From the NCBI GenBank assembly GCA_903902745.1, contig CAIUWA010000037.1:1-42379 (forward strand): 42,379 nucleotides of DNA, written 5' to 3'. The DNA is from an uncultured Opitutia bacterium. Lineage in GTDB: Bacteria > Verrucomicrobiota > Verrucomicrobiia > Opitutales > Opitutaceae. The number at the start of each line of letters is the position of its first letter. The first letter of the stretch is position 1. Of the stretch, positions 12,353 through 32,772 are shown piece after piece. The notes under the pieces were generated by a model that saw nothing but the letters and a program-made list of their open reading frames with translations, did no database searches and was not told the DNA's origin. Made by a program: the position numbers and the translations under genes.

Positions 12353-12580
12353 ATGCAGGATGATCTCCACAAGATCCTCACCAACCCGGAAGTATTTCCG
12401 GTTGAACTGACACTGACGAGTGGGGACAAAATCCGGATACTCCATCCGGACTACGTGCTCTTCTCGAGAAAGATGGACCGGATTATTTATTTCCCCGAAG
12501 ACGGCCCGGATCTTTTTGAAATGATCCTGCCTTGCCAGGTTGCCAGGATCCGGGCGCACAAAAAGAAGCGCGCAGCGTAG
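12353..12580 (+). CDS. Hypothetical 75-aa protein
   Basis: A compact protein with alternating hydrophobic and charged strands ('VELTLTSGDKIRILHPDYVLFS', 'DRIIYFPEDG', 'FEMILPCQVARIRAH') and a basic tail. It resembles small unannotated proteins with a 'HPDY/HPDF' motif that I associate with Verrucomicrobiota and Planctomycetota; this is recollection, not a search. An in-frame ATG at 12287, preceded by a GGGAG purine stretch, would give 97 residues. The shorter start is preferred because the conserved-looking part begins there. It is convergent with cysS, two bases away, and divergent from thrS. Function unknown. Confidence 0.65.
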   Translation: MQDDLHKILTNPEVFPVELTLTSGDKIRILHPDYVLFSRKMDRIIYFPEDGPDLFEMILPCQVARIRAHKKKRAA

Positions 12581-28950: not shown

Positions 28951-29084
28951 GCTCGCGTCCCGCGGGCGGGTTCGACAAATCTCTTGCTTCACTCCCGCCG
29001 CGTGAAGACTATCGACCGACTGTCAACACCGACCCGCTCTGACCAAGCAACCACGTGGGCTCAGGCCCGCTTTCCGCTGATTAC

Positions 29085-31055
29085 ATGGACGAAAATGCTC
29101 CGCAGGAAAATCCGCCGCCGGATTTCAACAAGATCGACCTGACCCAACTCCAAAGCTTCAGCTTTGGGACGCAATGGACGCAGGACAAAAATGCCCGTGA
29201 AGCCCGGCCGGACCGCCGTGAAGGCGTGCCCGACCGTCGCGACGATCGCGGGGCGCCCGACCGCCGCGACCGGCGGGCCTTTCGCAAGCCGGCGGGTGAC
29301 GCCCCGGCCCCGGGTGGCGCGCCCGCCCCGGCGGGTCCCGGCGGTGACGCCCGGCCCCCGCGCCGTGACTATGCCGGCCCCGGCGGTCCGCGGCGGGATC
29401 AGGGTGAATTCCGCGGTGGCCCGCGCCGGGACGGCCCGGGCGGCGAGGGTGGCGGCCGCTTTGCCCCACGGGGCGGACAGCCGTACGAGCGCGCCATGCC
29501 GTATGAGAGCCCTTATTTCGCAGCCACATTTTATCCCGAGGACACCAGTTTCGCTACCCTCGCAAAAACCATTCGCGCCTCCTGCCGCACGTTCGAACTT
29601 TTCGACATCGCGCGGACCGTGATCGGCAAGCCCGACCGGTTTGTCGTGGTGGTCCAGCGCAAGCCGGCGGCCGGCGCCTCGGCTGCGGCTGAGCCGGCCA
29701 AACCCGCGCCTTTCTACATTTCGGCGCCCGATGGGATTCCCTTCGAGAGCGAGGAACAGGCGATCGCCCATGTCCTGAGCAAGCACCTCGGGGTGTTTTT
29801 TGACACGGCCGAGGTCGAGGTGGAGCCGCCCAAGGGGAATTTCCAAGTCGTCAACAAGTGCGGGGTCACCGGCGAATTGCTCGCGCCGCCCAACTACCAC
29901 CGCTACAGCCAGATCATCCAGCAGCATCATGCCACGCAGCTGGCCCGCATGTCGTTCGAGTCCTTCCGCGCGAAGATTGAGACGATCCGCGATCCCGAGG
30001 TCATCAACCAGTGGCTAGCGAAGATGAAAAAGGCCACGCGCTACACGTGGAAAACTTCCGCCAAGCCGGCCCCGGCCAAGCCGGCCGCCGCCCCCGAAGC
30101 TGTGACGGACAACACCGCCGTGCCTGAGACGGCAGCGGCCCAGCCCGTTGCTGCACCGGCTGCGGAGTCCGCTCCGACTCCTGCCGATGTGGCACCCCAG
30201 GCCGCCGCTCCGGAAGCTCCGGTGGCAGCTCCGGCTCCCGCGGCCGAATCCGCCCCGGCGGCTCCGGCTGCGCTGGCGTTCGACACGCTGGAGGAGGCCC
30301 GCACCCATTTGTTGACCAACGCCCGCGAAAAAGTCGTGCGCCTCGCCGAGAACGCGCGCTTTCACGGCAAGATCATCGAAGTGCTCCCGCCGGGTGAAAT
30401 CCGCCGCGCCGTCGAAAGCACGCTGGACCGCCAGGGTCGTTTCCCGCTCGACACCGCCAACGCGCTCCGCGGCCGCCTGCGGCGCGAGGGCTTCACCATT
30501 TTCAAGAAGGGCTCGAAGGGCATCAGCTATGTCTGCGCCGTGAAGCGGAAATTCCGCGTCCCCGGCCAGGTCTTCGCCGACAGCATCGGCGCGCTCATCT
30601 CGTTCATCGAGGCCAACCCGATGGGCAAGGCGAGCGAGCTGCCCGTCAAATTCCTCGGCTTCACGCCCGCCGCCCCGGCGGCTCCGGCTGCCGGTGAGGC
30701 CGCGACTCCTGCTCCCGTTCCCGCTCCGGTGCTGACCATCGAGCAGCGCACCCAGCTCAACCGCATGCAGGGCGACCTCGCGTGGCTGGTACACGAGGGC
30801 TACGTGACGGAGTTCATCGACGGCCGTCTCTTTGCCGCTCCGCCCATGGTGGAATCCCGCAAGAAGGAAATCGAGGCGACTGAAGTTGATCCCGAGAATT
30901 TCCCCGAGGCGCCCGCCAGCGTGGAATCCAGGCCGGTCCGCGCGGATTCACCGCCTCCGGCAGATTCCCCGGTCGTGAGCGAAACGCCGGAGCCCGTCGT
31001 CGAAGCACCCGTGCCCGTTGCGGAACCGCCGTCCGAGCCGCCGCCTGCCTCGTAA
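29085..31055 (+). CDS. Orphan protein with Arg/Gly-rich disordered N-terminus and Ala/Pro linkers
   Basis: A 656-aa protein of unknown function. Residues about 45-130 are low complexity, rich in Arg, Asp, Gly and Pro ('PDRRDDRGAPDRRDRR', 'GGPRRDGPGGEGGG'), as in disordered RNA-binding tails. Three compact parts follow: about 135-330 ('YFAATFYPEDTSFATLAKTIRASCRTFELFD', 'QWLAKMKKATRYTW'), about 397-540 ('HGKIIEVLPPGEIRRAVESTLDRQGRFPLDTANALRGRL', helix-rich, possibly winged-helix) and about 565-625. They are joined by Ala/Pro/Glu linkers. The ATG at 29085 is preferred over the GTG ten codons upstream. A nucleic-acid role is suggested by composition only. It is convergent with tsaE. Confidence 0.8.
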   Translation: MDENAPQENPPPDFNKIDLTQLQSFSFGTQWTQDKNAREARPDRREGVPDRRDDRGAPDRRDRRAFRKPAGDAPAPGGAPAPAGPGGDARPPRRDYAGPGGPRRDQGEFRGGPRRDGPGGEGGGRFAPRGGQPYERAMPYESPYFAATFYPEDTSFATLAKTIRASCRTFELFDIARTVIGKPDRFVVVVQRKPAAGASAAAEPAKPAPFYISAPDGIPFESEEQAIAHVLSKHLGVFFDTAEVEVEPPKGNFQVVNKCGVTGELLAPPNYHRYSQIIQQHHATQLARMSFESFRAKIETIRDPEVINQWLAKMKKATRYTWKTSAKPAPAKPAAAPEAVTDNTAVPETAAAQPVAAPAAESAPTPADVAPQAAAPEAPVAAPAPAAESAPAAPAALAFDTLEEARTHLLTNAREKVVRLAENARFHGKIIEVLPPGEIRRAVESTLDRQGRFPLDTANALRGRLRREGFTIFKKGSKGISYVCAVKRKFRVPGQVFADSIGALISFIEANPMGKASELPVKFLGFTPAAPAAPAAGEAATPAPVPAPVLTIEQRTQLNRMQGDLAWLVHEGYVTEFIDGRLFAAPPMVESRKKEIEATEVDPENFPEAPASVESRPVRADSPPPADSPVVSETPEPVVEAPVPVAEPPSEPPPAS

Positions 31056-31056
31056 T

Positions 31057-31081
31057 GTAGGGGCGCACCTCGTGTGCGCCC
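31057..31081 (+). repeat. REP-like element 1 (GTAG + palindrome)
   Basis: GTAG (31057-31060) is followed at once by the 8-bp stem GGGCGCAC (31061-31068) with GTGCGCCC (31074-31081), loop CTCGT. It begins two bases after the stop codon of the 656-aa gene. Confidence 0.85.
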
Positions 31082-31094
31082 GGTTTGTTTCCTC

Positions 31095-31182
31095 GTAGGG
31101 CCCGACCTTGGTCGCGGCTGGTTTGAACGACGACGTTGCCGTATGACTAAGCGAAGAGGCAGCGAGCAAGCTCGGGCCCTAC
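31095..31182. repeat. Inverted REP pair (BIME-like element)
   Basis: Two 20-bp units face each other: GTAGGGCCCGACCTTGGTCG at 31095-31114 and, on the minus strand, GTAGGGCCCGAGCTTGCTCG at 31182-31163. The terminal 11 bp are identical. The units differ only at two positions, which pair with each other, so both hairpins (CGACC/GGTCG and CGAGC/GCTCG) stay perfect. Confidence 0.9.
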
Positions 31183-31193
31183 AAGGTTGAACC

Positions 31194-31218
31194 GGCGCAC
31201 CTCAGCGAGGTGGCCTAC
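31194..31218 (-). repeat. REP-like element 4 (GTAG + palindrome, minus strand)
   Basis: On the minus strand GTAG (31218-31215) is followed by GCCACCTC-GCT-GAGGTG-CGCC; the stem is CACCTC/GAGGTG (31212-31207 with 31203-31198), extended by GC pairs with one bulge. It closes the repeat cluster 20 bp from the tsaE stop. Confidence 0.8.
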
Positions 31219-31237: not shown

Positions 31238-31678
31238 TCACCGCAGGCGGATCGGGTGCCGACCGTCCGCCGTGATGCCGAGATCGAGATGCAGTGTGCC
31301 GGCGGGCAGCCAGGCGGCGATGTTGTCGGGCCATTCGATGGCCAGGCAATAGGGCGAAACGAGGAAATCCTCCAGCATCAGGGAGTCGAGCTGGGCGGCG
31401 TTCACGAGCCGGTAGGCATCAAGGTGGGCCAGCAGGCGTCCGGGCCCGCGATGCAGGGAGTAGAGTGTAAACGTGGGGCTTGTGACCGGCTCCGTAATAC
31501 CGAAGGCCCGGGCGAGTCCCTGCACGAAGGTGGTTTTGCCGACGCCAAGGTCGCCATGAAGGGCCAGCACCGCGTCGGCTGGCAGAACGGCCGCGAGCTC
31601 AGCGGCCAGCTCCTGCATTTCCTCGGCGGACGCCGTGTCCACTCCGGCGCGCAGCTTATCGTAAATGTTCGTAGCCAC
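31238..31678 (-). CDS. tsaE: tRNA threonylcarbamoyladenosine (t6A) synthesis ATPase TsaE
   Basis: The ATPase of the TsaB-TsaD-TsaE complex, which makes t6A37 in tRNAs reading ANN codons. The P-loop is 'LHGDLGVGKTTFVQGL'; 'VTSPTFTLYSLH', 'LAHLDAYRL' and 'LAIEWPDNI' are the other family motifs. The GTG at 31678 gives 146 residues, the usual size, and overlaps the end of thiL by 23 bp, indicating translational coupling. A longer frame starting inside thiL has no family-like sequence. No tsaB or tsaD is in the window. Its start codon is the least certain part. Confidence 0.92.
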   Translation of the reverse strand: MATNIYDKLRAGVDTASAEEMQELAAELAAVLPADAVLALHGDLGVGKTTFVQGLARAFGITEPVTSPTFTLYSLHRGPGRLLAHLDAYRLVNAAQLDSLMLEDFLVSPYCLAIEWPDNIAAWLPAGTLHLDLGITADGRHPIRLR

Positions 31679-32585
31679 GATAATCGTCGGGATTGAGCGC
31701 GCCCACCGGCCAGGCAGCGGTGGCAACAAAGCATCCAATGCAGCTGAGCCGGGTGCGGGGAAAGGACTTCCGCCATGCCCGCGCAAACGCGCTGCGGTCG
31801 GTCGAGCGGGCCACGGCGAAGACCAGTTCGTAATCCTCCCCCTCGCCGAGCGCGGCGGCGAGCGTCGCGCCCGCCCGACGCGGAATCCCGGCGGAATCGA
31901 GGGCGGGCCGGGTCCCGCGCGGTGTCAGGGCGTGCAGGTCCTTGGCGAGGCCGTCACTGACATCCATCATCGCGCGAACCGCGGCCTGGCGCGCGAGCCA
32001 GGCCCCTTCCGCCAGGCGAGGTACGAATTTAAAATGATGTCCGCTGCGCCGGCTGCCACCGAGCCGGCCGGTGACATAAATCCAGTCGCCCTGGCGCGCG
32101 CCGGTGCGGGCCACCACCCGGGTGCCGGCGGCGCGGCCGAGCAGCGTGAGGCTGGCGGCGACCACGCCGTCGGCCTGGGCGACATCGCCGCCGACGATGG
32201 CCACGCCGTAGCGCCGGGCACAGGTGGCAAGGCCGCGATAAAACTGCTCCAGCCATTTCCGGCTGACGCGCCCATCGAGGGTGAGCGCGAGCACGGCCGC
32301 GGTGGGCCGCCCGCCCATGGCCGCGAGATCGCTGAGGTTGCGCTTCAATAGTTTCGCGCCGGCGGCGCGGGGTGGCACCGCGGCGTCAAAGTGCCGGCCG
32401 TAGATGACGGGATCGACCGTGATGAGCTGCCGGCCGTGCGCGGCCGGCAGGACGGCACAATCATCCCCGATGCCGAAGGGCGAGCGCGGCGACGCCGATC
32501 CCAGCCAGCGCCGGATGCAGGCGATGAGCTTTTCCTCGCCGAGAGCGGAAACGGATTCCCGGAAAATTTTGGTGAAAGGGGACAC
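31656..32585 (-). CDS. thiL: Thiamine-monophosphate kinase
   Basis: Phosphorylates thiamine monophosphate to the active diphosphate. The 309-aa protein shows 'SALGEEKLIACIRRWLG', 'FGIGDDCAVLP', 'TVDPVIYGRHFD', 'LKRNLSDLAAMGGRPTAAVLALTL', 'AIVGGDVAQADG', 'MMDVSDGLAKDL' and 'GEGEDYELVFA', all family motifs of the PurM-like fold. The GTG at 32585 puts the family start ('SPFTKIFRESVSALGEEKL') at the N-terminus; an upstream start at 32630 would add 15 residues without similarity. It overlaps tsaE downstream. A REP pair separates it from the CPBP gene upstream. Confidence 0.93.
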   Translation of the reverse strand: MSPFTKIFRESVSALGEEKLIACIRRWLGSASPRSPFGIGDDCAVLPAAHGRQLITVDPVIYGRHFDAAVPPRAAGAKLLKRNLSDLAAMGGRPTAAVLALTLDGRVSRKWLEQFYRGLATCARRYGVAIVGGDVAQADGVVAASLTLLGRAAGTRVVARTGARQGDWIYVTGRLGGSRRSGHHFKFVPRLAEGAWLARQAAVRAMMDVSDGLAKDLHALTPRGTRPALDSAGIPRRAGATLAAALGEGEDYELVFAVARSTDRSAFARAWRKSFPRTRLSCIGCFVATAAWPVGALNPDDYRGYEHLR

Positions 32586-32658: not shown

Positions 32659-32684
32659 GTAGGGCGGTGACTCCGCTCACCGCC
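32659..32684 (+). repeat. REP-like element 5
   Basis: GTAG (32659-32662) is followed by the perfect 8-bp stem GGCGGTGA (32663-32670) with TCACCGCC (32677-32684), loop CTCCGC. Confidence 0.88.
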
Positions 32685-32746
32685 GGGAATGTCTCTTGAA
32701 TCCAGCCGGAGTCATTCGCCATCGGATGGGCTCTGTCCTTGTGCCC

Positions 32747-32772
32747 GGCGCGGAGCGGAGTCCGCGCCCTAC
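32747..32772 (-). repeat. REP-like element 6, inverted partner of element 5
   Basis: Read on the minus strand: GTAG (32772-32769), then GGCGCGGA with TCCGCGCC around loop CTCCGC. Loop, GTAG head and stem base equal those of element 5. The differing stem bases are matched on both sides, so pairing is kept. The 62 bp between the two elements hold nothing recognisable. Confidence 0.88.

Follow-up and report, generated by a model that had tools for sequence, protein, structure and literature searches.

Dispersed GTAG-type REPs make up a BIME-like cluster between convergent genes in an Opitutaceae genome

What are the four GTAG-headed palindromes that lie in the 182 bp separating the stop codon of a 666-aa ORF from that of a convergent tsaE gene, and how did the central two come to differ at just two bases that pair with each other? 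The locus belongs to a 42,379-nucleotide stretch of DNA (the window) from an uncultured Opitutia bacterium. Its placement in Opitutaceae, or the GTDB equivalent (Verrucomicrobiota), follows from the same-family genome G014, which includes an exact copy of 6404 bp from a named Opitutaceae MAG. Direct reading confirmed the four palindromes, here called W, A, B and X, that had been reported between the upstream gene and tsaE in an earlier, sequence-only reading (Table 1). The upstream ORF of that reading is present as well, but its length from the first start codon is 666 aa and not 656. The central units A and B point towards each other, their GTAG heads on the outside; W and X point towards each other too. 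As had been claimed, A and B are inverted and differ only at two mutually pairing bases, although the span they share is 21 bases rather than 20: the first 21 bases of A are those of B save positions 12 and 17, which form a C:G pair in A and a G:C pair in B. Neither A nor B has a perfect local stem, B retaining mainly its inner stem, and a tolerant stem scan of the cluster recovered W, A and X and missed B. At E ≤ 0.001 the 666-aa ORF matches nothing in Pfam or NCBIfam; by tblastn, its relatives adjoin tsaE in a fair share of the compared loci. Elsewhere in the window, a further GTAG-headed imperfect stem, GTAGTCCGGATGGAGTATCCGGA, is found at 12454 on the minus strand.

Table 1 Features of the tsaE gap and its surroundings, in window coordinates
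Feature	Position	Strand	Description
Flanking 666-aa ORF	29055-31055	+	Length from first start codon
REP unit W	31057-31081	+	GTAG, then 8-bp stem and 5-nt loop
W hairpin and tail GGTTTGTTTC	31061-31091	+	Weak terminator-like site, + strand only; 1 found, 0.2 in shuffles
REP unit A	31095-31118	+	Central dimer, left end; extra C in 3' half of stem
A-B dimer spacer	31119-31158	n/a	Dimer and spacer aligned elsewhere in the genome
REP unit B	31182-31159	-	Central dimer, right end; pair 12:17 is G:C, not C:G
REP unit X	31218-31195	-	Direct reading and stem scan
Flanking tsaE	31238-31786	-	TIGR00150, PF02367
R-family REP dimer (REPIN)	32659-32772 (114 bp)		R2 32659-32684 (+), R1 32747-32772 (-)

Such stems are more frequent than chance would have it. 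A 400-kb sample of this genome was drawn at round coordinates from contigs known from earlier matches. In it, GTAG ranked first of the 256 tetranucleotides standing 0-2 nt before perfect 8-bp stems (21 of 1444 GTAGs, 12.4 times the mean), which agrees with the excess of GTAG-headed stems expected under the sequence-only reading. For stems of 7 bp GTAG came third (27 of 1444, 5.3 times the mean), the overlapping words TAGG and TGTA being ahead of it. The tolerant scan gave 40 GTAG stems per 400-kb sample, so that about 0.02 would be expected per 180 bp. At least 49 places in the genome match the cluster DNA at E ≤ 0.001, a count for which 40 of 84 first-look candidates were scored; W and X have several matches each in this search. 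The pattern shared by A and B, GTAGGGCCCGASCTTGSTCG, occurs with at most two mismatches at 47 places in the 3.29-Mb genome and its reversed control at none, which bears out the proposal of a REP/BIME-like cluster with other copies in the genome. Of 64 REPs from seven families, 48 lie between ORFs, even though 89% of the sample is ORF by crude calling; part of that sample was retrieved on account of its REPs. By the same crude calling, 21 of 23 A and B units are located between ORFs, as are 4 of 7 X units and 9 of 14 units of the family R described below. Characters of GTAG-type REPs are found here: GTAG beside a short palindrome (in B with an imperfect stem), dispersed copies and a mainly extragenic location.

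The 47 A/B places can be sorted by end-type into 25 A, 17 B, 4 c and 1 x, where c has C:G at pair 12:17 like A and differs at pair 9:20, and x is B with one change. The 24 places with zero mismatches are exact 20-mers, 13 of A and 11 of B. Eighteen close pairs, with units at most 200 bp apart, comprise 14 A-B, 3 A-c and 1 x-A, with no A-A or B-B pair among them; these pairs are related by descent and so are not independent. GTAG is outside in 13 of the pairs and inside in 5, and 11 units stand alone. Taken with its spacer, the dimer could be aligned to five other genomic places (72-84%; C12:16565, C12:14110, C48:87542, C17:26062 and C5:33078); an inverted REP pair and its spacer, as in REPINs and BIMEs, thus recur as a unit. 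Unlike partners are seen in relatives too. All six close pairs fetched from G068 have them, two of these joining G-type with G-type units that differ elsewhere, and five places fetched from G049 yielded two pairs, both unlike, and three single units.

Because both versions recur as exact 20-mers and as A-B dimers, we read the C:G/G:C difference as inherited end identity, A and B being recurrent end-types of one dimer. Since c shares C:G at 12:17 with A and differs at 9:20, the rule would be one of unlike ends and not of one particular pair. Within each end-type, the primary sequence is kept. The sequence-only reading had concluded from the compensated difference that conservation acts on the hairpin and not on the primary sequence; as stated, this is not supported, given the recurrence of A and B as exact 20-mers and in A-B pairs. 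A rival account of the two bases is compensatory mutation in place, whereby two copies of one REP diverged under selection for the hairpin. The bases do pair, and the family covaries across genomes, but A and B recur genome-wide as described, both types are present in G068, G049 and G012 too, and this recurrence of both end-types refutes the account for the A/B pair, leaving it next to no probability.

Covariation was assessed across the 61 genomes of the family, where the A/B pattern with up to three mismatches gave 127 matches in 14 genomes. The reversed control gave 9 matches in 9 genomes, and one or two matches in a genome therefore carry little weight. The pattern is clear in G000 (36 matches) and in G068 (36) and G049 (31), which supply the copies in related genomes that the REP reading led one to expect, and is probably genuine also in G012 (5) and G006 (4). 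The 63 distinct 24-mers align without gaps. In the 9-bp stem, 89.2% of the cells are paired, against 79.0% in shuffles, and sliding the structure lowers the paired fraction to 18-44%. Changes on both sides were counted in 58 cells against 23.4 in shuffles (none of 500 shuffles as high), in a set that was gathered by consensus pattern and in which kinship inflates such counts. The double changes fall at pairs 7:22, 8:21, 9:20 and 12:17, and 32 double-changed cells remain without pair 12:17, which the pattern left free. Two of the five covariation measures, the pairs with double changes (4) and the further pair types (13), are not above shuffles, and pair 6:23 is broken in 21 of the 63 sequences. 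Covariation across aligned copies, as proposed in the earlier reading, gives good, though not unbiased, support for a hairpin kept in the A/B family.

The cluster as a whole is also strongly foldable: a 176-nt stretch folds better than each of 200 shuffles (z = -5.5), and fold prediction allows the whole stretch a single nested structure. Such folding would suit a structured RNA gene of its own, either a small RNA or another described RNA family. The only two Rfam matches are to microRNA families; they reach 32 and 31.8 bits where the gathering scores are 70 and 98, and both fall on the inverted-repeat part; no promoter-like site was found in the cluster, which is not kept at the tsaE gap in relatives, and we consider an RNA gene very improbable. 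As a candidate, an Rfam-type RNA was rejected for want of a match over the gathering score.

Alternatively, the cluster might be a kept terminator or mRNA 3'-end structure serving the convergent genes, its likeness to REPs being secondary. Its position between convergent genes and the weak terminator-like site at W agree with this, as does the finding that, among eight tsaE gaps of relatives read by eye, four (L095, L099, L105 and L114) carry ordinary-looking terminators, whereas the cluster gap has none. The 45 REPs with both neighbours are located in 15 convergent, 23 codirectional and 7 divergent gaps, compared with 109, 225 and 115 of all gaps, which amounts to an excess of REPs in convergent gaps; by the same count, most REPs are not between convergent genes. 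Moreover, no terminator-like site was found on the minus strand, as a bidirectional intrinsic terminator would have, and the units are dispersed repeats that are not kept at the tsaE gap in relatives. A kept terminator or 3'-end structure is rather unlikely in our judgement, while retaining some weight.

The tsaE loci of 29 relatives (1.5 kb on each side, less at contig ends) contained no such cluster at the stem threshold used, and three of them show a GTAG stem somewhere. In L118, from another family, an AT-rich GTAG palindrome lies about 220-260 bp past the 3' end of tsaE. G002, a genome of the same genus, has kept both convergent genes (73-75% protein identity), and its 190-bp gap holds a different inverted pair, GTAGTCCCGGCTTCAGCCGGAA and a GCAG-headed partner, seen at a lower threshold. 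The L099 gap, besides its terminator-like sequence, contains GGAGGGACGACCTCCGTGTCGTCC; but for the head, this is identical to the REP next to a REP-associated tyrosine transposase (RAYT) gene in L181. By these comparisons, the tsaE gap changes its content among relatives and has taken in REPs of different families. A clean empty site was sought in the relatives for the cluster and for the R dimer of the window and was not found, nor was any transposition seen; at the place of the R dimer, G002 (L232) has other sequence between the two genes, without an R unit. The ACACAGAT and CCGTGCAATCAGTGG stretches in it look like another repeat.

The R family leads to the one RAYT match in the genome, which is 98% complete. 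The 148-aa protein, P0001, scores 87.4 bits against the RAYT model NF047646 (cut-off 80); assignment to the IS200/IS605 elements was rejected, the score against NF033573 being 24.9 bits, below the cut-off of 55. P0001 contains PDHVH and YIRQNP, which we take to be the HUH and Y motifs. On both sides the gene is flanked by inverted R REPs, GTAGGGCGCGGACTCCG[C/T]TCCGCGCC, and unit R1 of the window dimer is the very sequence that flanks it. R occurs at 37 places in the genome and in 8 of the 61 family genomes, with no control match in either search. The prediction of a RAYT gene flanked by the same elements thus holds in that a RAYT sits between GTAG palindromes, but these are of the R family and are not the units of the cluster; the search for RAYTs in this genome found none flanked by A/B, W or X REPs.

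Nineteen distinct R dimers were read (L086 and L123 are one place and were counted once), of which 17 measure 112-117 bp and two, L124 and L139, are shorter. One end continues with GGGC and the other with GGG[AT] in 17 of the 19, the exceptions being L121 and L139, and these unlike continuations make the dimers polar; in the RAYT element itself, GGGC follows on either flank. There are ten R1-R1 and nine R1-R2 dimers. R2, a variant carrying paired changes, lies at the GGGA end in 8 of 10 cases, a tally that counts one unpaired R2. RAYTs 53-56% identical to P0001 sit between ACTCCG-core REPs in three other genomes (L060, L190 and L191), and the one in L060 is flanked by exact R1. G002, which is 97% complete, has 29 R copies and no RAYT match, so that repeat copies and transposase gene need not coincide. 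A separate GTAG family, S (GTAGCGGCGSTCTATGASCGCCG), displays a compensated G:C/C:G alternation and is found singly and in pairs about 57 bp apart, with examples in this genome at L072:2181-2238, L073:2628-2685 and L089:1159; no end-pairing rule was seen in this family (GTAGCGGCGSTC...).

Do unlike ends have a function of their own? A comparison of 51 dimers gave 31 with unlike and 8 with identical stems, 12 being dropped for unequal length or geometry; the set is non-random, repeats dimers of single loci and holds perfect stems only, so that differences are compensated by construction and only their being unlike is informative. In predicted folds, the advantage of the long hairpin over the local hairpins was 0-12.3 kcal/mol in eight A-B-type dimers (nine tried; one, L141, is A-c) and 4.7-12.8 kcal/mol in six R1-R2 dimers, compared with 12.7-25.7 kcal/mol in hypothetical homodimers made from those dimers and 22-24 kcal/mol in five distinct natural R1-R1 homodimers. 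Any mismatch would reduce the advantage of the long hairpin by construction, which makes this a property of the dimers and not proof of selection. The paired end differences could conceivably be a selected design in which the hairpin of each end stays readable to the RAYT, the long end-to-end hairpin, which would conceal both ends, is spoiled, and left and right are labelled. The natural R1-R1 homodimers speak against a strict unlike-end rule, and we regard such a design as doubtful.

For the types found in the cluster, adjacent RAYT or RAYT-like genes occur in relatives. RAYT matches are present in 55 of the 61 family genomes and exceed the cut-off in 36. Among 62 distinct RAYT-like loci, some of which score less than the curated cut-off, a GT[AG]G-headed stem lies within 300 bp in 38 cases and on both sides in 32, against 4 in control regions 900-1200 bp away; GTAG alone leads the 256 heads (33 of 62). 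The other 24 loci have no GT[AG]G stem within 300 bp at the threshold used, and with a laxer threshold a stem is nearby in 53 of 71 loci (nine counted twice), against 2 in the control. In G068, a 188-aa ORF with MPDHVH (L220:1324-1890), RAYT-like with 61.6 bits against the RAYT model and under its cut-off of 80, has A/B-type REPs on both sides. A RAYT of G051 (84.7 bits; L207) has on one side a W-like REP, which differs from W by one compensated pair, and on both sides the partner type of that REP. In G038, a RAYT with one TGA in its reading frame has X-like REPs at either flank (L162).

Taken together, the cluster is very probably a BIME-like mosaic of RAYT-copied GTAG-type REPs, in which an A-B REPIN is nested between one W and one X, and a cluster of this type is ordinary for the group. 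As judged by sequence, its elements are dispersed, paired, polar in the case of R, hairpin-conserving in the case of A/B, and linked to RAYTs at the level of the family. By extension from model systems, where RAYTs read GTAG and a hairpin on single-stranded DNA, the REP units would be non-autonomous elements copied by RAYT transposases. A dimer would be copied whole, with its two ends distinct, and the compensated A/B difference would then be an inherited end mark. The resident P0001 fits the R family, and A/B, W and X probably spread by RAYTs that the genome lost or never kept. Any role of the hairpins once they are inserted is probably that of a 3'-end structure between the convergent genes. 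An Opitutaceae genome thereby gains the delimited REP families R, A/B, W and X, with RAYT or RAYT-like genes here or in relatives. More generally, when neighbouring REPs differ in a compensated way, the difference can stem from inherited end identity and not from a fresh compensatory mutation, which is a trap when a single locus is read.

Among known systems, the REPINs of Pseudomonas fluorescens are treated in PMC3116915, presumably Bertels and Rainey 2011. In the accessible portions of that paper, as here, the replicative unit is two inverted REPs with their spacer; the P. fluorescens REPINs are described as symmetrical, whereas the A/B dimers and 9 of the 19 R dimers have unlike ends. The same portions note compensatory changes in REPINs, discuss a long hairpin versus a 'clover' fold and suggest that the long hairpin is unreadable to RAYTs (PMC3116915). 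As far as the accessible text of PMC8266576 goes, the y and z REPs in BIMEs of E. coli, which have a TnpA-REP of their own, likewise place two unlike REP types in one mosaic element, and the bulged, irregular E. coli stem resembles unit A. The E. coli types are of unequal length and have a conserved mismatch in common, whereas A and B are told apart by a single base pair and have perfect consensus stems. The string 'Verrucomicrob' is absent from the accessible portions of PMC12306157, PMC6006769, PMC8266576, PMC2817692 and PMC3116915, and 'Opitut' from those of PMC12306157, PMC6006769, PMC2817692 and PMC3116915.

The closest parallel is found in the accessible sections of Di Nocera 2013 (PMC3733652), according to which GTAG repeats occur in the PVC superphylum and Opitutus terrae is 'highly enriched in GTAG repeats', with several families, GTAG-17, -19 and -20 being named, and RAYT-REP elements exist in most species with GTAG repeats. 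In these sections heterodimers are preferred with 'no obvious explanation' and are suggested to escape hairpin-cutting enzymes (PMC3733652). A selected end difference, if true, would explain this published heterodimer excess and give a simple assay; new in that idea would be the joining of both printed suggestions and the role as an end label. The sequence-only reading had announced a REP family in Verrucomicrobiota, and GTAG REPs are indeed present here, but they are not the first, verrucomicrobial GTAG REPs being in print (PMC3733652). The present genome is another member of the family in relation to that study, which includes O. terrae. Common to the repeats here and the GTAG REPs in those sections are the GTAG head, stems of 6-13 bp, inverted dimers, homo- and heterodimers alike, and RAYT-REP elements (PMC3733652), and A/B, R, W and X may be new members of the GTAG REPs or even the published families.
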